The translations under genes were made by a program, and so were the position numbers. A stretch of DNA of 64,000 nucleotides. Origin: Paenalcaligenes suwonensis. GTDB lineage: Bacteria > Pseudomonadota > Gammaproteobacteria > Burkholderiales > Burkholderiaceae_B. The notes under the pieces are model-generated. The model did not search any database. It was not told the origin of the DNA and was given only the letters and a program-made list of their open reading frames with translations. The stretch spans positions 1 to 64,000 of the forward strand of contig NZ_JAANPV010000005.1 in NCBI RefSeq assembly GCF_011290505.1, in the 5' to 3' direction. Shown piece after piece: positions 14,248 through 55,041 of the stretch (the first letter of the stretch is position 1; every line of letters starts with the position of its first letter).

Positions 14248-14298
14248 CTCGGACTCATAATCCGTTGGTCGCTGGTTCAAGTCCAGCTGGGCCCACCA
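14248..14298 (+). other. 3' fragment of a CAU-anticodon tRNA; probable att site
   Basis: The sequence from the 5' anticodon stem on (CGGACTCATAATCCG) through the T-arm (GCTGGTTCAAGTCCAGC) to TGGGCCCACCA is an authentic tRNA 3' half with anticodon CAU (Met, or Ile2). The 5' half expected upstream (a GGGCCCA acceptor strand and a normal D-arm) is absent, so the fragment marks the junction of an element that integrated into a tRNA gene. The matching intact or 5' copy should lie to the left, outside the window. Confidence 0.8.
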
Positions 14299-44878: not shown

Positions 44879-46327
44879 CTACAGCACCTCATCTTTCAAG
44901 TGATACCAGCGATACAAGAAGCGCTGACCAAATCGTCTAAACGGGGCAAAAAACTCGGACTCCACCATTTCCCGTACATTCGGGAACGGTAATCTGTCTT
45001 GGAATATAGGCAGATCCAGCTCTTGGCCTTTGCCTGCAATCCACTGGGCCATGCGCCTACCTGCTTGTGATGAATACATCACGCCATTACCGCCATAACC
45101 CATTGCGTAATAAATGGTTTGTTTTGGGTCTGGCTGCACAATGCGCGGCATCATGTCGTGACTGACGTCTACCCATCCCCACCAGGAATAAGCAATATCA
45201 ATGCCTTTTAGCTCTGGAAACTTACGCTCCATTGCACCTACTAGCAGGTCTTGATACTTACGTTGCGGCGCATCTTTGCCCGTAATCGCGCTACGGCTAC
45301 CAATCTGCAAACGGTTATCCGGCAACAAACGGTAGTAGTTACGCAGCACACGTGTATCGGTTAGTACCTGATGCGTGTAAAAACGGCAGGCCTCAATCTC
45401 TGCTGCAGTCAGCGGACGAGTCACCATGGAATTAGACAAAATCGGCAATAAGCGATTTTTAAACTCTTTATGCAACCCATTAGAGGTATAGCCACCAGTT
45501 GCCACCCCTACGGCTTTGGCTTTGACCACGCCACCTGGGGTTTGCAAATAGTGATAGCCGTTTCGAGTTTTCCAGCTTTGTACTGGGCTGGATGGGTGCA
45601 CAGTAGCCCCCAAAGCACGGGCTTTTTTCAAATAACCAAAGGCCAATTTTCCGGCGTGTATACCTATACCCTCAGGCTCATGCATCGCACCATGGGCTTC
45701 ATGATCATTCACCCACTCGTTACGTACGGTGTCAGCACTTAAAATGCGCGCATCGTAGTTAAAGGTGTCACGCAATAACGCCGCTTCTTTTTCTAGAACC
45801 GGCATCACACGTTCACGGTGAGCAATGTACAAATGGCCACCCGGTTGCGGATCACAGTCTATGTCTTTGATCAGCTCTTTGAAGTTCTCCATGCCCTCTA
45901 CGCACTCACGGTGCATTTTCAGAGCTGTCTCTACACCCCAACGCTGAATCCACTGCGAACGCTTTAATCGGCCCGAGGCACATTGTGCTTGACCGCCGTT
46001 ACGTGTACTACACCCCCACGCGGTACGGTTGGCTTCTAGTACTGTTGCTTTGATACCGTGTTCTTGGGCCAGGAAAATGGCTGTCGTTAAGCCCGTAAAA
46101 CCCGAACCAATAATGGCCACATCCACTTCTATATCGTGGGTAATAGGACCATCATCTTCTGGTGGTTCACCAGCAGTACCTACCCAATAGGTAGGTGCAT
46201 ATTCCGTACCTTCACCAGGATTGCTATGCGCGGTGAACGGATCATAGGCTGGATCATAAGGACGTTTAGCAGGTGTAGCATGCCCTAACGTCTCAGCCAT
46301 AGTCTGTTTTGACGTTTCTTGGAGCAT
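44879..46327 (-). CDS. tauY: Taurine dehydrogenase large subunit, FAD-dependent
   Basis: A 482-residue flavoprotein of the DAO/PuuB type. An N-terminal extension (AYDPFTAHSNPGEGTEYAPT, YWVGTAGEPPEDDGP) precedes the FAD-binding DVAIIGSGFTGLTTAIFLAQ (residues 68-87) and WGCSTRNGGQAQCASGRLKR, which is characteristic of TauY. YAMGYGGNGVMYSSQAGRRM contacts FAD near the C-terminus. With TauX it oxidises taurine to sulfoacetaldehyde and ammonia. It starts one base after the tauX stop. PuuB-like amine oxidases are the alternative, but tauX and xsc next door decide for TauY. Confidence 0.87.
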   Translation of the reverse strand: MLQETSKQTMAETLGHATPAKRPYDPAYDPFTAHSNPGEGTEYAPTYWVGTAGEPPEDDGPITHDIEVDVAIIGSGFTGLTTAIFLAQEHGIKATVLEANRTAWGCSTRNGGQAQCASGRLKRSQWIQRWGVETALKMHRECVEGMENFKELIKDIDCDPQPGGHLYIAHRERVMPVLEKEAALLRDTFNYDARILSADTVRNEWVNDHEAHGAMHEPEGIGIHAGKLAFGYLKKARALGATVHPSSPVQSWKTRNGYHYLQTPGGVVKAKAVGVATGGYTSNGLHKEFKNRLLPILSNSMVTRPLTAAEIEACRFYTHQVLTDTRVLRNYYRLLPDNRLQIGSRSAITGKDAPQRKYQDLLVGAMERKFPELKGIDIAYSWWGWVDVSHDMMPRIVQPDPKQTIYYAMGYGGNGVMYSSQAGRRMAQWIAGKGQELDLPIFQDRLPFPNVREMVESEFFAPFRRFGQRFLYRWYHLKDEVL

Positions 46328-46328
46328 A

Positions 46329-46718
46329 TTATTTCCCGCTAGTCACTGGAGGACGGTTTTTACGGAAGGCATTTTTAATGGCAATTTTGTCACCCTCAAA
46401 CGTGAACAAATCCACCATCAGTGCTTCGTGTTTGCCACCATTCAGGTCTGTACCTTTAAAGCGCGATGTAGACATGGCGTGGTTGGCATCCAGCATATGG
46501 AAGTCACCATCTAACCATGCTGCATCGGGGAAGTTTTTCCACGCCGACTCAAAAGCCACACGTACTTTCTCGTGGCCTTGGTGAATAGTGCCTTCTACTT
46601 CATTACCCGCAATCGCGTAGAATGCACAATCTTTGGTCATCATGCTCATGATGGTATCAATATCATGGTCATTCCACGCTTGGCTGTAGGCTTTCAATAG
46701 TTCTAGTTTTTGATTCAT
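46329..46718 (-). CDS. tauX: Taurine dehydrogenase small subunit, NTF2-like
   Basis: A 129-residue SnoaL/NTF2-like protein (MNQKLELLKAYSQAWNDHDI, then MMTKDCAFYAIAGNEVEGTI and WLDGDFHMLDANHAMSTSRF). TauX of known taurine dehydrogenases is a protein of this fold and size. It has a GGAAGGAG ribosome site. It lies between thiG and tauY in the same operon and should form the complex with TauY. Confidence 0.83.
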   Translation of the reverse strand: MNQKLELLKAYSQAWNDHDIDTIMSMMTKDCAFYAIAGNEVEGTIHQGHEKVRVAFESAWKNFPDAAWLDGDFHMLDANHAMSTSRFKGTDLNGGKHEALMVDLFTFEGDKIAIKNAFRKNRPPVTSGK

Positions 46719-46746: not shown

Positions 46747-47553
46747 TTATTGCATTACCGGCTGTGCGTCGCTATGTATTAGCCCTGTAGTAGGTGAGGA
46801 CGCTTCAGCCAAATAATGTTTTTTGGGCATACGCCCAGCTAAAAATGCATCACGCCCTGCCTGCACCGCCCTGCGCATAGCTCGCGCCATACGAATGGGG
46901 TCTTGTGCGTAAGAGATGGCAGAATTCATCAGTACCGCATCGCACCCTAGTTCCATGGCGATGGTGGCGTCTGAGGCAGTTCCCACCCCAGCGTCCAGCA
47001 GTACTGGTACGTTTATTTGATCCAAAATCAGACGTATATTCCACGGGTTCAAAATGCCCATGCCCGAGCCGATAATCGAGGCCAACGGCATAATGGCAAC
47101 GCAGCCCATGTCTTCCAACATACGTGCTTGTATAGGGTCGTCCGAGCAGTACACCATCACGTCAAAGCCTTCTTTCACCAGCGTTTTCGCCGCCTTTAAG
47201 GTTTCAGGCATGTTGGGGTACAGGTTTTTCTGACTACCGAAAATTTCGAGTTTTGCCAACGAATGGCCATCCAACAATTCGCGCGCTAAACGCAGCGTGC
47301 GTACCGCGTCGTCGGCGCTAAAGCAGCCAGCGGTGTTGGGTAAATAGGTGTAGTCTTGCGGTGAAACATAGTCCAGCAAACTGGGCTCGCCAGCATCCTG
47401 ACCTATGTTGGTGCGGCGTATAGCAACGGTGACAATCTCTGCCCCGCTCTGCTCTACCGCTTCGCGTGTTTCAACAAAATCTTTGTACTTGCCAGTGCCT
47501 ACCAGCAATCTGGATTGGTATGAGCGGCCTGCAATAACGAGTGCGTCTTCCAT
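46747..47553 (-). CDS. thiG: Thiazole synthase ThiG in the taurine operon
   Basis: A 268-residue protein. ATG 47553 ([20 protein letters not shown]) is used; the longer frame reads through a GC-rich stem-loop. ThiG condenses deoxyxylulose phosphate, dehydroglycine and ThiS thiocarboxylate into the thiazole of thiamine. Landmarks are [18 protein letters not shown], the imine-forming Lys in [27 protein letters not shown], and [20 protein letters not shown]. All look intact. There is no thiS, thiE, thiF or thiO in the window, which is unusual. It sits between xsc, a thiamine-diphosphate enzyme, and tauX. Confidence 0.9.
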
Positions 47554-47584
47554 AAAACAGCCTGTTCTTTTGTTGACTTCAATA

Positions 47585-47607
47585 GGAGGGGGCGAGCCGC
47601 CCCCTCC
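47585..47607 (-). other. GC-rich stem-loop between xsc and thiG
   Basis: GGAGGGGGC-GAGCC-GCCCCCTCC is a perfect 9-bp GC-rich stem without a T-run, about 25 bases after the xsc stop. It probably protects the abundant xsc mRNA or attenuates downstream expression. Confidence 0.65.
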
Positions 47608-47630
47608 AGGCACTACTCAATCTAGAAAAA

Positions 47631-49445
47631 TTAGACGTAGTCTTTGTATTTTTCCAGCAAACGTACAGGACGTTTCAGCGCATCACGACGGAACGGATCA
47701 CCCAGTTCGCGTGTACACATGATTTCCAACACGCAGGTTTTGCCCTCGTTCATCTGCATGTCAATGGCGCGTTTCAGTGCAGGACCTACATCCTCCAAAC
47801 GATCCACGACTATACCCTCAGCACCCATGGCTTTGGCAATATCTGCAAACGATGCGTTATCCAACTCGCCGGCTACAAAACGACGGTTGTAGAACTCCAC
47901 CTGGTTTTTCTTCTCAGCACCCCATTGACGGTTATGGAACACCACCGCTGTCACGGGAATTTCATGACGTACCGCTGTCATGATTTCCATCATGCTCATG
48001 CCCCATGCGCCATCACCGGCGTACGACACCGCTGGACGCTCTGGTGCAGCCGTTTTGGCACCAATAATAGTAGGCAATGCGTAACCGCAGTTACCAAAGC
48101 TCATGGGGGCGAAGAAGCTGCGTGGTTTTTCAAAACGCAGGTAGCTGTGCGCCACCGAGTTAATGTTACCGATATCTGTAGACACCATTACATCGGCAGG
48201 CATGGCTTTTTCCAGCTCACGCAATACTTGACGTGGGTGTAGGTATTCGCCGCCATTAAAGGTTTTCTCTTTGGCATTTTCAGCAATCATGTCCAAGCTG
48301 TATGGATCAGTTTCGTGTGTCCACGCATCCAATTCTGCTTCCCATGTCGCTTTTTCTTGGGCAATGGTTGCTGCGCGATCCGCTTTAGTCGCATCGCTAG
48401 CCAGTTTGCGCGCACTCACGCGTGCCAACAGCTCTTTAGCCACGGCTTTTGCGTCACCACAAATACCGACGGAGATTTTTTTCACCAGACCCAGCATTTT
48501 GTGATCGGCATCAATTTGGATGATCTTGGCATTTTTAGGCCAGTAATCAATACCGTACTGCGGCAATGTACCAAATGGTCCCAAGCGAGTACCCAGCGCA
48601 ATCACCACGTCAGCTTGCGAAATCAGCTTCATACCTGCTTTGGAACCTTGGTAACCCAAAGGACCGCACCACAGAGGATGGCTAGCAGGGAAAGAGTCGT
48701 TATGCTGATAGCTGTTCACAACCGGAGCACCCAAGCGTTCAGCCAGCGCTTTACACTCTTCAACCGCGTCGCTCATCACCACACCACCGCCCGAAATAAT
48801 CACCGGGAATTTAGCGTTAGCCAACAATTCCAGTGCTTCTTCCAGTGCTTGTTCGCCACCATGACCACGATCTAATTTACGTGGTGTAGGGATTTCACAT
48901 GTCACTTCACCGTAGAAGTAGTCACGTGGAATATTCAACTGGGTTGGGCCCATCTCGGTCATCGCACGCTCGAAACACAAGCTTGTGTATTCAGCCATAC
49001 GAGCAGGATTGGTCACATGCCCTTGGTATTTAGTAAATTCTTGGAACATGGGTAGCTGGTTACACTCTTGGAAACCACCCAGACCCATTGTGTTGGTACC
49101 TGCCTCAGGCGTCACGATCACCACAGGACTATGTGCCCAGTAAGCCGCCGCAATACCGGTTACGCAGTTACTGATACCAGGGCCATTCTGGCCAATCACC
49201 ACACCATGCTTACCGGATACGCGAGCGTAACCATCGGCCATGTGCGCAGCACCTTGTTCGTGCACCACCGGAATCAAGCGTATCCCTGCTGGCGCAAAAA
49301 TATCCATGGCATCCATAAAAGCGGACCCCATGATCCCAAACATATCCTTCACACCGTAAGACACCATGGTCTCTACGAATGCCTCTGAAGGGGTCATTTT
49401 TGTTAGTCCGGTTACCGGCTTACGGTTATCTGCTACCTGGCTCAT
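47631..49445 (-). CDS. xsc: Sulfoacetaldehyde acetyltransferase, Xsc
   Basis: A 604-residue thiamine-diphosphate enzyme. It cleaves sulfoacetaldehyde with phosphate into acetyl phosphate and sulfite. The N-terminal domain has HEQGAAHMADGYARVSGKHG with the ylide-activating Glu, the middle domain VINSYQHN... and the C-terminal domain the ThDP motif GDGAWGMSMMEIMTA with HNRQWGAEKKNQ. Length and layout match Xsc rather than acetolactate synthase (about 550-575). ATG 49445 follows GGAG. Context with tauXY, pta and a sulfite-exporter-like gene is decisive. It is the first gene of the minus-strand operon, with ATCTC repeats upstream. Confidence 0.94.
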   Translation of the reverse strand: MSQVADNRKPVTGLTKMTPSEAFVETMVSYGVKDMFGIMGSAFMDAMDIFAPAGIRLIPVVHEQGAAHMADGYARVSGKHGVVIGQNGPGISNCVTGIAAAYWAHSPVVIVTPEAGTNTMGLGGFQECNQLPMFQEFTKYQGHVTNPARMAEYTSLCFERAMTEMGPTQLNIPRDYFYGEVTCEIPTPRKLDRGHGGEQALEEALELLANAKFPVIISGGGVVMSDAVEECKALAERLGAPVVNSYQHNDSFPASHPLWCGPLGYQGSKAGMKLISQADVVIALGTRLGPFGTLPQYGIDYWPKNAKIIQIDADHKMLGLVKKISVGICGDAKAVAKELLARVSARKLASDATKADRAATIAQEKATWEAELDAWTHETDPYSLDMIAENAKEKTFNGGEYLHPRQVLRELEKAMPADVMVSTDIGNINSVAHSYLRFEKPRSFFAPMSFGNCGYALPTIIGAKTAAPERPAVSYAGDGAWGMSMMEIMTAVRHEIPVTAVVFHNRQWGAEKKNQVEFYNRRFVAGELDNASFADIAKAMGAEGIVVDRLEDVGPALKRAIDMQMNEGKTCVLEIMCTRELGDPFRRDALKRPVRLLEKYKDYV

Positions 49446-49503
49446 CACCTAGTCTCCATTTATATACAAATACAGTGTATGGCACACCACATGCATCAAA
49501 AAT

Positions 49504-49540
49504 CTTATTTTCCGAGATTTTTTAAACACTTTATCGAGAC
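49504..49540 (-). promoter_or_regulatory. Two direct repeats upstream of xsc, candidate IclR operator
   Basis: On the minus strand GTCTCGATAAAGTGT begins at 49540 and ATCTCGGAAAATAAG at 49518, exactly 22 bp apart and oriented toward xsc. The second matches the pta-proximal repeat at 12 of 15 bases. The 49446-49654 gap is AT-rich and is the shared promoter region of xsc and cobS. Confidence 0.6.
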
Positions 49541-49654
49541 AAAAACAGTCTGTCAATCATAAAATGGATAATAATCTCAATATTCGATATATTTAGTACC
49601 ATATATTGTGTATAAATAGATAAAAACCCTTAGTCCAGCAGTAGAGGAGTAGAA

Positions 49655-50620
49655 ATGTCTCAAAAAATAGAAATACCTGAACATAACGTATCAGTAAAAG
49701 AAAAATTCGGTATAGAAAGCCCCTTGCATGTACCGGCTTTTAGTGAAGCCACTGAATACGTACCTGCTGTGGATGAGGCCTACCGTTTTGATCCCGAAGT
49801 CACGCTGTCGTTGTTGGCGGGCTTTGCGCACAACCGACGTGTACTCATACAAGGTAGGCACGGTACAGGGAAATCCACACACATAGAACAAGTGGCAGCA
49901 CGACTAAATTGGCCCTGCATACGGGTTAACTTAGACGGCCATATCAGCCGCTTAGACTTAGTAGGCAAAGACACCATCACCATTCAAGACGGGCTGCAAG
50001 TGACCCGCTTTCAAGAGGGCGTGATCCCTTGGGCCATGCAACGCCCTATGGCATTAATACTGGATGAGTACGATGCAGGTAGGCCTGATGTGATGTTTGT
50101 GATTCAGCAAATACTGGAACAAGACGGGCGCTTTACCTTGCTGGATCAAAATCGTGTGTTACACCCACACCCCTACTTCCGGATTTTTGCTACCACCAAT
50201 ACGCTGGGCTTAGGTGATCAAACGGGTTTATACCGTGGTACACACAGCTTGAACCATGCTCAGCTTGATAGATGGAACATCGTCAGTACCTTGAACTACC
50301 TGCCCGCTGCAGAAGAAGAAGCCATTGTGTTGGGGCGCGTCCCCGTTAAAAACACCGAGCAAGGCAAACACGATATACAGGCGATGGTGGCCTTGGCTAA
50401 CCTTACCCGCCAAGCCTTTGCTGTGGGTGATTTATCGACGCTGATGTCGCCACGTACGGTTATCACCTGGGCTGAAAACTGCACCCTTTTTCACGATAAA
50501 CGTCGTGCTTTTGTGGTGTCTTTCTTTAATAAATGCGATGAAAGCGAGCAAAACCTCGTCAAAGAGCTGTACCAACGTTGCTTTAACGAAGAACTGCTGC
50601 CCAACGACGCTTCAGCCTAA
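49655..50620 (+). CDS. cobS: CobS-like AAA+ ATPase
   Basis: A 321-residue AAA+ protein matching the cobaltochelatase CobS subunit along its length: FGIESPLHVPAFSEATEYVP at the N-terminus, Walker A QGRHGTGKSTHIEQVAARLN, Walker B MALILDEYDAGRPDVMFVIQ, and FRIFATTNTLGLGDQTGLYR. With CobT and the large subunit CobN it inserts cobalt into hydrogenobyrinate diamide; no cobN is in the window. It is divergent from xsc and 15 bases before cobT. Here it may be a repurposed MoxR-like activator. Confidence 0.88.
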   Translation: MSQKIEIPEHNVSVKEKFGIESPLHVPAFSEATEYVPAVDEAYRFDPEVTLSLLAGFAHNRRVLIQGRHGTGKSTHIEQVAARLNWPCIRVNLDGHISRLDLVGKDTITIQDGLQVTRFQEGVIPWAMQRPMALILDEYDAGRPDVMFVIQQILEQDGRFTLLDQNRVLHPHPYFRIFATTNTLGLGDQTGLYRGTHSLNHAQLDRWNIVSTLNYLPAAEEEAIVLGRVPVKNTEQGKHDIQAMVALANLTRQAFAVGDLSTLMSPRTVITWAENCTLFHDKRRAFVVSFFNKCDESEQNLVKELYQRCFNEELLPNDASA

Positions 50621-50634
50621 TTAGGGAGCACCGC

Positions 50635-52368
50635 ATGAGTACCCCCGCCTCCCCTGACCTGCGCGAGCAGCGCCGCATACGTGAACTGAGCGCCATGGTG
50701 ACACGCGCCTTGGCCGATGATGCTCAGGTACATATACGGCAGCAGCTATTTTTTAAGGCAAACCGCCCTTTGGTGGCCTTAGCCCCGCATCTGCGTTTGC
50801 ATGACACCGAAGACTTGCAAGGTATGCGTGGTGTTGCTGACAGCCTTGCCCTGCGTTTGCTGCATACCCAGACCGCCCTGCATCAACAGTTGATACCGTC
50901 GGATGCGGTATCTCGATTAATCTTTGACTGGCTGGAAGCACTGCGTACCGAGTCTTTAGCCCCTGCCTACATGCCGGGGATGCGCTATAACTTGCAGCAA
51001 CGTTTCTATTTTTGGTCGGCAGGCTACTACCATGCCCGTCATACCGAAAGTGAATTGGGTATTTGGCTCTACACCTTGGCACAAATGTGTTGGAGCCGCC
51101 TAAACGCTCTGCCTGTCTATGAGGAAACAGAAGACTTTATAGAAAGCACCCGTGCTGGCTTAACCCCCGTACTGGGGCCACTGCTATACCAACTACGCAA
51201 ACACCGAGATGACCAAGCGACTTACGCGACTTACGCCTTGCAAGTCGCCGCCTTAGTGCATCACGAAGTAGAAGCCATGCGGCAAGCCCAGCCCGAAGCT
51301 GCTAATGACACCGAAGACGAACCGGAATGGGACAACTTTTCGTTATTGCTGGATTTTGATGGCGATGACGCGGCGTCATTTGCGCCAACCGCCAGTACGA
51401 CGGAACGGCTACCTACCACTGCACCTGAACGCTATCAGGTGTATGACAACCAGTACGATAAAGAAGAGCATCTGGCCGAATTAATACGCCCCGAATTACT
51501 GAATGCCTATAGAGAACAAATCAATCAACGCATTGCCCACCAACACCTGCACCTTAATTTGTTGGTTCAGCGCTTACGACGCGCCTTAACCCTACACAGC
51601 GACCCACGTTGGGTTAACGATCAAGAAGACGGGTATATAGACGGTGCGCGCTTAAGCCAATTGGTGAGCAACCCCAATGAACGCCGCCTATTTAGGCAAC
51701 CTACACTGGCACCTCACACCCCTTGCAGCATCAGCTTCTTGGTGGATTGCTCAGGCTCAATGAAGCACCATGCCGAAACCGTCACCTTGATGGTGGACAT
51801 TCTTAGCCGTGCCTTAGAACAAGCAGGCGCTCAAACTGAGGTGCTGGGCTTTTCTACCCATGCATGGAATGGCGGCAAGCCCTTTAAACGCTGGATGGCG
51901 CGACAACGCCCAGCCAACCCCGGAAGATTAAACGAGGTTAGCCACCGCATTTTCAAAGCCGCACAAACACCGTGGAAACGCGCTAACCGCGACATCACCG
52001 CGCTGATGAAACTGGACTATTACCGCGAAGGTATTGACGGTGAAGCCGTGCAGTGGGCTTGTCAGCGCTTACTGTCGCAACAAAGCGAACGTAAGATTCT
52101 CTACGTGCTGTCTGATGGCTGCCCCATGGACAGTGCTACCAACCTAGGTAACAACGAACACTACTTAGAGAATCACCTGCTACAGGTGTTAGCACGCTCG
52201 GCTCAACAAGGTGTAGAGGTGTGGGGCATAGGCATAGGGTTAGATCTAAGCCGGCTCTATACGCATTCACTGATTGCAGATTTTGAGCACGGCTTAGACA
52301 ACCACTTTCTGGATGATTTTGTGCGCAGCCTACGCCCTACTCACCTTGGCCTTGGTTCTCGATCTTAG
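50635..52368 (+). CDS. cobT: CobT-like VWA-domain protein
   Basis: A 577-residue protein. The N-terminal helical part leads to an acidic linker (about residues 215-265). The C-terminal von Willebrand A domain (about 350-570) has the MIDAS motif FLVDCSGSMKHHAETVTLMV and family landmarks VLGFSTHAWNGG, RPANPGRLNEVSHRIFKAAQ, IDGEAVQWACQRLL and VLSDGCPMDSAT. It is the partner of the upstream CobS-like ATPase. Its last 32 bases overlap the convergent iclR gene. Confidence 0.87.
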   Translation: MSTPASPDLREQRRIRELSAMVTRALADDAQVHIRQQLFFKANRPLVALAPHLRLHDTEDLQGMRGVADSLALRLLHTQTALHQQLIPSDAVSRLIFDWLEALRTESLAPAYMPGMRYNLQQRFYFWSAGYYHARHTESELGIWLYTLAQMCWSRLNALPVYEETEDFIESTRAGLTPVLGPLLYQLRKHRDDQATYATYALQVAALVHHEVEAMRQAQPEAANDTEDEPEWDNFSLLLDFDGDDAASFAPTASTTERLPTTAPERYQVYDNQYDKEEHLAELIRPELLNAYREQINQRIAHQHLHLNLLVQRLRRALTLHSDPRWVNDQEDGYIDGARLSQLVSNPNERRLFRQPTLAPHTPCSISFLVDCSGSMKHHAETVTLMVDILSRALEQAGAQTEVLGFSTHAWNGGKPFKRWMARQRPANPGRLNEVSHRIFKAAQTPWKRANRDITALMKLDYYREGIDGEAVQWACQRLLSQQSERKILYVLSDGCPMDSATNLGNNEHYLENHLLQVLARSAQQGVEVWGIGIGLDLSRLYTHSLIADFEHGLDNHFLDDFVRSLRPTHLGLGSRS

Positions 52369-53146
52369 CCAATGCCGCCGCCGCCCGTTTTAAGGCGGGT
52401 AAACACGACAGCGCCTTATCGGGTGTCATACGCATCACAGGCGCTTGCGTGGCAACGGCCATATTAGAACGTCCGCCATCGGCACGAGGCACCAACACGG
52501 CTACGCAAAACAACCCCGGCAAAAACTCTTCGTTGTCGAAGGCATAGCCACTTTCCTTGACCAGCGCCAACTCTTTTTCCAGATCGTCCAAGGTGGTGAT
52601 GGTATTTTTGGTGTAGCTTTCTAAAGGGGTATCCGCTAATAAGCGACGGCGTTGCGCCGGGCTCATTTGTGCCAGTAGCACTTTACCGCTAGCCGAACAA
52701 TGCACGGGGACGCGGGAACCTGGGCGCAAGTAAAAACGCAAAGGGGCTTCGGTTTCTACCCTATCCATATACAGCACTTCACTACCAGACAGCGCTGTTA
52801 AGTTACAGCTTTCGCCTAGTTCATTACCTAAATTACGCAATACGGCGCGTCTAGCCCCGTATTTAGTGTCATTAAGCAGCAAATCTTCGGCTAAACGGCG
52901 TAAGCGTCCACCTACGCAATAATGCCTACCATCGGTATCGCGGGCCAACATGCCAGCCCCTTCCAGTTGCTGCAACATACGATGCACAGTTGGCTTAGGT
53001 AGCTCAATTGCATCGACCACATCCTGCAAAGCAAACATACGATCTTGACTGGCGATTAGTTCCAATATGCCGAACAAACGCATAGTGGGTGTATCGCCAG
53101 AGTTTTTTACTTTTGACTCACGTACTTCTGCTTGTTTTTCAGCCAT
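52337..53146 (-). CDS. IclR-family transcriptional regulator
   Basis: A 269-residue regulator. The N-terminal winged helix contains LFGILELIASQDRMFALQDV and ELPKPTVHRMLQQLEGAGML. The C-terminal effector domain has LRNLGNELGESCNLTALSGS, SRVPVHCSASGKVLLAQMSP and YAFDNEEFLPGLFCVAVLVP, all typical. It is divergent from pta, with repeats in between, and is convergent with cobT. It most likely controls the sulfonate genes and itself; the effector could be sulfoacetaldehyde, acetyl phosphate or a substrate, which is inference. Confidence 0.92.
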   Translation of the reverse strand: MAEKQAEVRESKVKNSGDTPTMRLFGILELIASQDRMFALQDVVDAIELPKPTVHRMLQQLEGAGMLARDTDGRHYCVGGRLRRLAEDLLLNDTKYGARRAVLRNLGNELGESCNLTALSGSEVLYMDRVETEAPLRFYLRPGSRVPVHCSASGKVLLAQMSPAQRRRLLADTPLESYTKNTITTLDDLEKELALVKESGYAFDNEEFLPGLFCVAVLVPRADGGRSNMAVATQAPVMRMTPDKALSCLPALKRAAAALAKIENQGQGE

Positions 53147-53284: not shown

Positions 53285-54286
53285 GTGCGCTTACTGGACA
53301 ACATCATTGAGGCGGCACGTAGTCAACCTGCCACCATCGTATTATGCGAAGCCGATGACCCTAGAGTTTTAGCGGCTGCACGGCGCGCTCAAACCGACGG
53401 TATTGCCCATATTATTTTGGTGGGCTCACTACCTGCCATTGAGGCGTGCGCCCAACAAAATGCCATCTCACTTGCGGGCTTGCGCATTGAAGACCCGGCT
53501 CACTCTACCCTGCGCCCCACGATGGAGGCTCAGCTTTTACGCTTACGCGCCCCTAAAGGGATGACGACAGAACATGCTGCTACCCAAATACAAGATCCGC
53601 TGTGTTTTGCCAACATGTTGGTGCACAGTGGTATTGCCGATGGGTCTGTAGCTGGTGCGGTATACAGCACTGCCGATGTAGTACGTTGCGCTTTGCAATT
53701 AATTGGTAAAGCGCCTGAGGCAGAATTAGTATCCAGCTTTTTCTTAATGCTGATGTGCCAACCCCACCACCCCTACCAAGGGGGCATGATTTTTAGTGAC
53801 TGCGGTTTAGTGATTGACCCCAATGCCGAACAATTAGCCAGTATCGCCCAAGCAGCCGCTCAGTCTGCCCGTACTCTGCTGCAAACTGAGCCGCGTATTG
53901 CCATGCTGTCGTTTTCTACCGCCGGTAGCGCGCACCACCCTGCCGTCGATAAAGTCATTAAAGCGGCCCAGTTAGTCAAGCAACGCTGCCCTGATTTAGC
54001 CATTGATGAAGACATACAGTTAGATGCTGCACTTGTCCCTGCTATTGCGGCACGAAAACTGCCTGATTCGCATGTCAAGGGGCAGGCTAACGTCTTAATT
54101 TTCCCTAACCTTGAAGCTGGTAACATAGCGTATAAAGCCGCCGAACGCTTAGGCCAACTCACTGCCATTGGCCCACTACTGCAAGGCTTACGCAAACCTG
54201 CTAACGACCTTTCCCGAGGCTGTAGCAGCGACGATATTTACGCTGTGATCGCCATCACCTCTTTGCAAACACTCTCTACGTCATGA
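53285..54286 (+). CDS. pta: Phosphate acetyltransferase
   Basis: A 333-residue short-form Pta. It converts the acetyl phosphate made by Xsc to acetyl-CoA. Landmarks are VLCEADDPRVLAAARRAQTD, the substrate-binding MLVHSGIADGSVAGAVYSTA, MLSFSTAGSAHHPAVDKVIK and NVLIFPNLEAGNIAYKAAER. GTG 53285 follows GAAGGAG. It overlaps the exporter gene by ATGA, making an acetyl-group recovery plus sulfite-export pair. Confidence 0.93.
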   Translation: MRLLDNIIEAARSQPATIVLCEADDPRVLAAARRAQTDGIAHIILVGSLPAIEACAQQNAISLAGLRIEDPAHSTLRPTMEAQLLRLRAPKGMTTEHAATQIQDPLCFANMLVHSGIADGSVAGAVYSTADVVRCALQLIGKAPEAELVSSFFLMLMCQPHHPYQGGMIFSDCGLVIDPNAEQLASIAQAAAQSARTLLQTEPRIAMLSFSTAGSAHHPAVDKVIKAAQLVKQRCPDLAIDEDIQLDAALVPAIAARKLPDSHVKGQANVLIFPNLEAGNIAYKAAERLGQLTAIGPLLQGLRKPANDLSRGCSSDDIYAVIAITSLQTLSTS

Positions 54287-55041
54287 GCTTGATCTCCCCC
54301 CTGCTTTTACTGCTCATTATTGTTATTGGTACCTACTTTCAAACCATCACTGGCTTTGGTTTAGCCATGATCGTGATCGGCATTAACAGTGCGGTAGGGC
54401 TCACCAGCGTACCGTTTATTGCGTCGGTAGTTAGTTTGGTGAGCTTAGTAAATAGCGGTGTGGCGTTACCTAAGCACCTGCACCATATTGATTGGCGACT
54501 GGCCAATACCACCTTGTTGGGGGTGATTCCTGCCAGCGTACTAGGCGTGGTGCTGTTAAATTTTTTAAATGCTCAAGCCACTAGTATTTTGGAGTTTCTG
54601 CTGGGGTGCGTGATTGGCTATAGCGGCATTAATTTTGCCCTGCGCCCACGCCAGCACAAAGAGGTGTCCAGCCTACGGTCTTTTTTCTCGGTAGGCTTTA
54701 TTTCGGGACTATGCGGCGGGCTCTTCGGTATTCCAGGGCCACCGGTTATTTTCCACTTGTACAGACAACCACTAAGCTTGGCCGTCACACGCAATATGTT
54801 GCTGCTGATCTTTGCCTGTACCGCTTTTTCTCGTAGCTTGTACGAATTCATTACCACTGGTTTTCCTGACGGTACGCTCACCACCACCTTACTGGCCGTG
54901 CCCTGCGTGGCTGTAGTCACGATGCTGACGCAGCGCTTTCCCCCGCCACTTAGCGTTGAAACAGTACGTCGTATCACCTTTGGTACGTTAATTCTGATTG
55001 GTATCAGTCTTATCGTGCGTAGCCTAAGCGCACTGCTGTAA
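54283..55041 (+). CDS. TauE/SafE-family exporter, probable sulfite exporter
   Basis: A 252-residue protein with eight predicted helices and two repeated halves. TITGFGLAMIVIGINSAVGL at the start and FISGLCGGLFGIPGPPVIFH in the second half are the paired Gly/Pro motifs of this family. It starts in an ATGA overlap with pta. In Xsc pathways members of this family are thought to remove sulfite; here that role is inferred from position. A strong terminator follows. Confidence 0.85.
   Translation: MSLISPLLLLLIIVIGTYFQTITGFGLAMIVIGINSAVGLTSVPFIASVVSLVSLVNSGVALPKHLHHIDWRLANTTLLGVIPASVLGVVLLNFLNAQATSILEFLLGCVIGYSGINFALRPRQHKEVSSLRSFFSVGFISGLCGGLFGIPGPPVIFHLYRQPLSLAVTRNMLLLIFACTAFSRSLYEFITTGFPDGTLTTTLLAVPCVAVVTMLTQRFPPPLSVETVRRITFGTLILIGISLIVRSLSALL

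Follow-up and report, generated by a model that had tools for sequence, protein, structure and literature searches.

The cobST pair and its neighbourhood

The locus described here lies in a 64,000-nucleotide stretch of Paenalcaligenes suwonensis DNA (contig NZ_JAANPV010000005.1, positions 1 to 64,000; the whole stretch is referred to as the window), and is built around two adjacent genes for a CobS-like AAA+ ATPase and a CobT-like protein with a von Willebrand factor A (VWA) domain, placed back to back with xsc, the gene of sulfoacetaldehyde acetyltransferase (Xsc), by which sulfite is released when taurine is broken down. An earlier reading of this DNA, here called the original prediction, had claimed a complete pair with intact motifs and a promoter gap common to the pair and xsc. 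Indeed, both open reading frames are intact, with Walker A, Walker B and metal ion-dependent adhesion site (MIDAS) motifs present, and a divergent gap of 206 bp separates cobS from the start of xsc at 49448 on the minus strand. The features of the locus are as follows:

49655..50620, plus strand: CobS-like AAA+ ATPase, 321 amino acids, xsc-linked group (Pfam, TIGR01650, tree)
49853..49879, plus strand: Walker A, GRHGTGKST, in the CobS-like protein
50054..50080, plus strand: Walker B region, LILDEYDAG, in the CobS-like protein
50635..52368, plus strand: CobT-like VWA protein, 577 amino acids, xsc-linked type (Pfam, TIGR01651, homology to solved CobT)
51745..51762, plus strand: MIDAS DxSxS motif, DCSGSM, in the CobT-like protein
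52111..52131, plus strand: MIDAS SDG loop, SDGCPMD, in the CobT-like protein
49449..49654, no strand: divergent xsc/cobS intergenic gap, 206 bp
47631..49448, minus strand: xsc, sulfoacetaldehyde acetyltransferase, clade A, the proposed client (TIGR03457, tree)
46747..47613, minus strand: ThiG-like thiazole synthase adjoining xsc (PF05690)
46329..46718, minus strand: SnoaL-like small protein, probable TauX (PF12680; kept beside tauY in relatives)
44879..46327, minus strand: flavin adenine dinucleotide (FAD)-dependent oxidoreductase, probable TauY (PF01266)
52337..53146, minus strand: IclR-family regulator, a frequent neighbour of cobST in relatives (Pfam)
53285..54286, plus strand: pta, phosphate acetyltransferase (Pfam, NCBIfam)
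54283..55041, plus strand: TauE/SafE-family exporter (PF01925)

The names TauX and TauY are those that we take to apply to the two minus-strand genes, and are to be read as probable only.

In Pfam terms the CobS-like protein combines AAA_5 with CobS_N, and the CobT-like protein CobT with CobT_C, its VWA domain being C-terminal. An AAA+ gene with Walker A and B motifs thus adjoins a VWA gene with a MIDAS, as is characteristic of AAA+/VWA remodeller pairs. Both proteins remain under the equivalog cut-offs of NCBIfam, the CobS-like one with 478.8 bits against TIGR01650 (cut-off 558.55) and the CobT-like one, by far, with 256 bits against TIGR01651 (cut-off 759.05); the Xsc of the window scores 1052.8 bits against TIGR03457, over its cut-off of 676.4. 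The motifs are conserved beyond the window: the Walker A and B patterns and the sequence DEYDAGRP are kept in all 36 xsc-linked CobS examined, DxSGS is present in 37 of 37 xsc-linked CobT and SDGxP in 36 of the 37. The best match of the CobS-like protein in the PDB is CobS (3.2e-130), followed by midasin. Two other identities of this protein were considered and rejected, namely the CbbQ/NirQ/NorQ subfamily (a CbbQ-type chain matches only at 1.5e-8, and no CbbQ family is among the Pfam matches) and the magnesium chelatase subunits ChlI/ChlD (no Mg_chelatase Pfam match at E <= 0.001).

A pattern scan of a named genome collection gave 15 matches, one of which was confirmed. The species is Alcaligenaceae bacterium 429, with a CobT 86% identical to that of the window and the same gene order from cobS to the tripartite ATP-independent periplasmic (TRAP) transporter; its contig begins just upstream of cobS, and hence carries no xsc.

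Association with clade-A Xsc and independence from CobN

Co-occurrence was counted by whole-genome profile searches in samples of the family (91 genomes), the order (300 genomes, each at least 90% complete) and the phylum (329 genomes), which overlap and whose members are related by descent. The thresholds for xsc were E <= 1e-200 in the family sample and 1e-190 in the phylum and order samples, and that for CobT was E <= 1e-30 in the latter two, with at most three (phylum) or four (order) candidates scored per genome. Within the order and class of the window, the Xsc scores separate into clade A, above 1000 bits, and clade B, at 883-980 bits. Clade A was checked on a tree for 35 carriers, genome G533 and one Rhodococcus plasmid, and clade B for 13 Xsc from 12 of the 25 clade-B genomes; four of the 17 xsc genomes labelled 'same phylum' were included as well. 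Bit score alone can mislead on the clade, because the Xsc of one 'same phylum' genome (G287), at 1015.7 bits, groups with distant Xsc on the tree.

In the samples searched, CobT of the window type and clade-A xsc occur almost exclusively together. The family sample holds CobT in 25 genomes and xsc in 26, with CobT in 22 of 22 clade-A xsc genomes versus 3 of 69 others (Fisher p = 3e-18), and all four clade-B xsc genomes (G003, G045, G075 and G081) are without CobT. The three CobT genomes without xsc (G076, G037 and G079) are assemblies of 160, 300 and 540 contigs; in two of them the CobT match starts at the end of a contig, and the cobS of G037 is cut by a contig end. The order sample, with 13 clade-A and 23 clade-B xsc genomes, yielded CobT in 12 of the 13 versus 2 of 287 others, these two (G487 and G557) having higher-scoring CobT, of 645 and 396 bits, and CobS that fall outside the xsc-linked group on the tree. 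CobT is found in 105 genomes of the phylum sample, of which 98 'same phylum' genomes, taken for Alphaproteobacteria, score at least 441.9 bits, and the remaining 7, with low scores, coincide with the 7 xsc genomes of the window's order and class. The 17 'same phylum' xsc genomes all possess a CobT of the higher-scoring kind; it is encoded on a different contig from xsc in 11 of them, and in the other 6 the distance is 110 kb or more. Ten records of a plasmid collection carry an Xsc of 80-90% identity, and each of the seven proteobacterial plasmids among them (hosts Burkholderia, Cupriavidus, Caballeronia, Paraburkholderia and Photobacterium) has CobT within about 4 kb of xsc.

The association extends to gene order, as mapped by tblastn. 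The pair and xsc share a contig in 30 genomes, with a gap of less than 2.5 kb in 28, 20.8 kb in G418 and 27.7 kb in G345, and are on different contigs in G033 and G065. Three arrangements recur: xsc divergent from cobS (the window, Photobacterium and, from a different family of the class, two further genomes), xsc-pta convergent with cobTS, and cobTS-iclR divergent from xsc. That the link is kept through rearrangement argues for function, and conserved linkage to a single metabolic enzyme, here clade-A xsc, is again a trait of AAA+/VWA remodeller pairs. Tabulating the linkage in relatives, as the original prediction had proposed, thus reveals it to be very strong. In G345 the pair (L037, 7688-10380) is located among genes that appear sulfatase-like and choline-dehydrogenase-like by eye from their translations. 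On the Caballeronia sp. NK8 plasmid pNK83 (L074, 13645-14613), cobT overlaps at its end with an opposite-strand gene for a CobW-type GTPase (PF02492, PF07683), and an amidohydrolase gene comes after the latter.

A cobaltochelatase has to be considered as well. The absence of cobN, originally noted for the 64 kb, holds for the whole genome (99.87% complete), where PF02514 has 0 matches; CbiC/CobH (PF02570), the single marker family used for corrin synthesis, was not found there either. The genome contains a single CobT gene (matched in two pieces, E <= 0.001) and a single CobS (E <= 1e-60), so that the proposed search for a cobN and for a second cobS or cobT recovered none at the thresholds used. 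We further assembled a carrier set of 32 whole genomes with clade-A xsc and the pair, 22 from the family sample and 10 from outside it (G021, G065 and G069 being only 75-83% complete). CobN is present in 11 of these and missing in 21, CbiC/CobH was not found in 29, the three less complete genomes included, while CbiC is present in 3, and CobN and CbiC are found together in G286 only. Across the family sample, CobN is present in 7 of 25 CobT genomes versus 11 of 66 others (p = 0.25, not significant), and 11 of its 18 CobN genomes have no CobT. Likewise, G533 possesses CobN and CbiC, yet no CobT match. Thus, despite homology to solved CobS and CobT structures and the presence of CobN in a third of the carriers, the two genes are very improbable as cobaltochelatase subunits partnered with a CobN: the lack of CobN in the genome of the window, the CobN and CbiC/CobH counts and the sub-cut-off scores all speak against it, and a CobN partnership was rejected. 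In the genome of the window, such a partnership could hold only if both a CobN and a corrin pathway were hidden in parts that the assembly does not cover. We therefore read the pair as no cobaltochelatase, and as independent of CobN and of corrin synthesis.

The lack of cobN and the very strong linkage to xsc together make a dedication of the pair to the sulfonate pathway well supported. The original prediction had assigned the pair to an enzyme of this pathway or to a metal or cofactor step; the pathway assignment stands, narrowed to one Xsc clade, and for metal or cofactor insertion we recovered no direct support. Xsc is not known to need anything beyond Mg2+ and thiamin diphosphate, and this argues against an insertion of metal.

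Regulation was also considered. The divergent xsc/cobS gaps of relatives weakly share a T-rich box (in the window within 49449-49654), possibly a regulator site. For control by TauR through its published motif we obtained no support: the window holds 1 match (6.2 expected), located at 14277 and away from cobS. A GTCCAG at 49633 has no counterpart in the other divergent gaps compared, and promoter-like sites (3 versus 3.2 in shuffles) and terminator-like sites (4 versus 3.1) are at about chance level.

Candidate clients of the pair

The Xsc tree (54 sequences) places 35 of 35 CobST-linked Xsc in one clade with support 100/100, G533 and one Rhodococcus plasmid falling inside it. In the CobS tree (50 sequences; the short L053 and L083 were left out), the 36 xsc-linked CobS split at 98/95 from 11 'same phylum' CobS, nine of whose genomes have CobT over the cut-off; the xsc-linked proteins do not group with the CobS of these genomes with classic CobT. 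With a single Xsc clade and a single CobS group, the partnership appears to have arisen once and to have been inherited and transferred jointly since then.

Co-variation was assessed by partial Mantel tests on the 25 loci with all six genes (CobS, CobT, Xsc, TauY, Pta and IclR). With the others controlled, Xsc yielded 0.43 with both CobS and CobT, Pta 0.35 and 0.32, IclR 0.30 and 0.35, and TauY 0.05 and 0.02, respectively. The test favours Xsc as the presumed client, with some probability left for Pta and within the limits that common inheritance sets to it. A further alternative is passive hitchhiking, i.e. the pair being in the cluster through common descent and shared regulation only, congruent with the single origin on the Xsc tree and with the co-variation of the neighbouring IclR gene. 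We nevertheless find this quite improbable, as the linkage survives several gene orders from Burkholderiales to Photobacterium, and the Walker and MIDAS motifs are kept in 36/36 CobS and 36-37/37 CobT.

As cobST tracks the whole taurine cluster, the taurine dehydrogenase TauXY was considered as client, to be matured or remodelled in place of Xsc. TauY, counted above 600 bits (matches of 399-459 bits in G426, G455, G504 and G564 are uncounted), is present in 31 of the 32 carriers, the exception (G642) being a 300-contig assembly; the cobST of G418, distant from xsc, adjoins tauXY, and the CobST-less G533 is also without detectable tauX near tauY. However, G003, G045, G075, G081 and G533 all have TauY above 600 bits and no pair, the first four combining it with clade-B Xsc; G495 lacks the pair as well, its TauY being in two pieces. 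Moreover, TauY is on another contig than cobST in G345 and G286, and does not co-vary with the pair once Xsc, Pta and IclR are controlled. The TauY distribution and the partial Mantel test hence demote TauXY as a client, and we regard it as an unlikely one.

Another clade-A-linked step could be served instead, for instance the disposal of sulfite, Pta, the supply of thiamin diphosphate or a metal enzyme as yet unseen. The co-variation of Pta, which is near xsc in many clade-A loci, is congruent with this, as are the 14 neighbourhoods, that of the window included, in which thiO-thiG or a ThiG paralogue lies close to cobST. On the other hand, G533 and Rhodococcus keep pta with clade-A xsc in the absence of cobST, many other neighbourhoods yielded no thiG, and the clade-B xsc genomes, without the pair, should also produce sulfite. 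We therefore consider such a step doubtful as the role of the pair. As to the thiazole genes themselves, Xsc uses thiamin diphosphate; the ThiG paralogue adjoins xsc in the window (46747-47613) and in L014, L015 and L016, thiO-thiG adjoins iclR-cobST in ten loci (L017, L019, L022, L023, L024, L026, L031, L032, L033 and L052), and the inspected Rhodococcus plasmid has thiS and a thiazole synthase as well.

Taken together, we read the pair, with about even confidence, as a dedicated CbbQO-like AAA+/VWA remodeller of taurine/sulfonate breakdown, whose likeliest client would be the clade-A Xsc of the neighbouring gene. If CbbQO and NorQD are taken as models, the CobS-like subunits would assemble into a hexameric ring carrying the CobT-like protein, which would contact a carboxylate on the client's surface through its MIDAS and transmit the ATP-driven force to the client. 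Remodelling may then open Xsc, so that a dead-end ligand is freed or Mg-thiamin diphosphate is reloaded, comparable to the rescue of inhibited Rubisco by CbbQO. To our knowledge, there is no earlier AAA+/VWA remodeller for a thiamin-diphosphate enzyme, and an Xsc activase would be the first. In more general terms, CobS/CobT-type machines may have been recruited from cobalamin synthesis as enzyme activases, with the pair acting on Xsc, a possibility that we put forward tentatively, at somewhat less than even confidence.

A potential contact region is offered by the alignment. E390 (window numbering) is found in 34 of 35 clade-A Xsc rows and E394 in 35 of 35, the latter position being a gap in 13 of 13 clade-B rows. 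The clade-A marker residues, which include E137, E390 and E394, are common to the Rhodococcus and G533 proteins, and as these are without the pair, the residues are markers of the clade and no proof of an interface. The E390/E394 loop is nevertheless a plausible candidate for MIDAS docking, since CbbO reportedly attaches to Rubisco at a carboxylate on its surface.

Several observations weigh against Xsc as the client. Three Rhodococcus plasmids encode an Xsc of 81.6% identity with no CobT match at E <= 1e-20 in the plasmid records, and the one inspected has xsc-pta without cobST. Similarly, G533 (one contig, 99% complete) has an uninterrupted clade-A xsc open reading frame and no CobT match among the at most four candidates scored. 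Clade-A Xsc may thus not need the pair everywhere. In addition, the position of cobST in G418 (adjoining tauXY, 20.8 kb from xsc) and the co-variation of Pta and IclR with the pair count against it, and, with one origin on the Xsc tree, the genome counts are not independent events. Finally, Ruff and colleagues reportedly obtained Xsc in purified form in 2003, active with Mg2+ and thiamin diphosphate.

The locus of G533 (L054) comprises an xsc-pta-tauY-TRAP cluster with an extra open reading frame between pta and tauY, a putative membrane protein by eye; none of cobST, tauR and tauX was detected within the 19 kb inspected, and the sister genomes G423 and G662 keep all of these. The taurine pathway of G533 may thus be altered.

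If Xsc is indeed activated by the pair, taurine desulfonation would include an unrecognised ATP-dependent maintenance step, and a thiamin-diphosphate enzyme would join Rubisco and nitric oxide reductase as clients of AAA+/VWA machines. Natural controls exist in the clade-B Xsc without the pair and in the clade-A Xsc of the Rhodococcus plasmids. There is also a consequence for annotation: genes of the pair are named as cobalt chelatase (e.g. the Caballeronia CobT), and could be miscounted as evidence of B12 synthesis despite the absence of CbiC/CobH in 29 of 32 carriers.

Comparison with known systems

CobST-like genes also occur in other settings. On the Pandoraea oxalativorans plasmid pPO70-1 (L075, 6509-11608), a urease cluster has cobS-cobT after ureE and ureG. 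The 21.6-kb stretch, whose gene table is incomplete by design, shows no annotated ureF. On the tree, this CobS joins those of two 'same phylum' genomes and is separate from the xsc-linked type, and other plasmids with a similar CobT are mainly from Sinorhizobium and other Alphaproteobacteria. The Pandoraea genes may represent a second recruitment of CobST, to another enzyme. CobT-like VWA genes that match only the C-terminal part of the query, at about 24-33% identity among the matches listed, are present in 11 Vibrio and one Roseobacter phage records and in 11 Aeromonas plasmids.

The window shares its catabolic genes with the known taurine dissimilation cluster (tauXY, xsc, pta, tauE; TauR regulons). 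In its section on taurine, PMC5320631 lists the members of the TauR regulon without cobS/cobT, and 'cobs' and 'cobalt' are absent from its main text. Passages of PMC6829993, a paper naming tauX and xsc in Burkholderia cenocepacia, do not include cobS/cobT. In the PubMed Central (PMC) papers searched in full text, among which are few subscription papers, xsc, cobS, cobT and taurine are never found together, and neither are sulfoacetaldehyde acetyltransferase and MoxR, nor taurine, AAA ATPase and cobalt chelatase; sulfoacetaldehyde and cobaltochelatase are co-mentioned in one paper, on a methanogen. No description of a taurine-pathway role for a CobST-like pair was found in the papers searched.

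With the cobaltochelatase CobNST the pair has in common both families (AAA_5 with CobS_N; the CobT N-terminal region with a VWA domain carrying a MIDAS) and homology to the solved chains 9ujv and 9uka. It differs in the lack of CobN and CbiC/CobH in the genome, in its sub-cut-off scores and in forming a separate, xsc-linked CobS group. A passage of PMC9227772 states that chlI/chlD may replace cobS/cobT beside CobN, and calls chlI and chlD without the large subunit unexplored.

The likeness to NorQD is that of an AAA+ ring with a VWA partner acting on a client enzyme; according to PMC13036017, NorQD is proposed to open nitric oxide reductase for iron insertion via this partner. Unlike in that system, no metal-containing client is apparent here, and NorQ matches the CobS-like protein only at 5.5e-5. 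Regarding the Rubisco activase CbbQO, of the MoxR AAA+/VWA class, PMC4660213 reports that CbbO uses its MIDAS to bind an acidic residue on the surface of Rubisco and that CbbQO frees the inhibited enzyme. The pair differs from CbbQO in being CobST-like in sequence, with CbbQ-type chains matching the CobS-like protein only at 1.5e-8 and 1.4e-7, and in its presumed client, a thiamin-diphosphate enzyme. What the two have in common is that an AAA+ gene and a VWA/MIDAS gene are encoded together with one metabolic enzyme.

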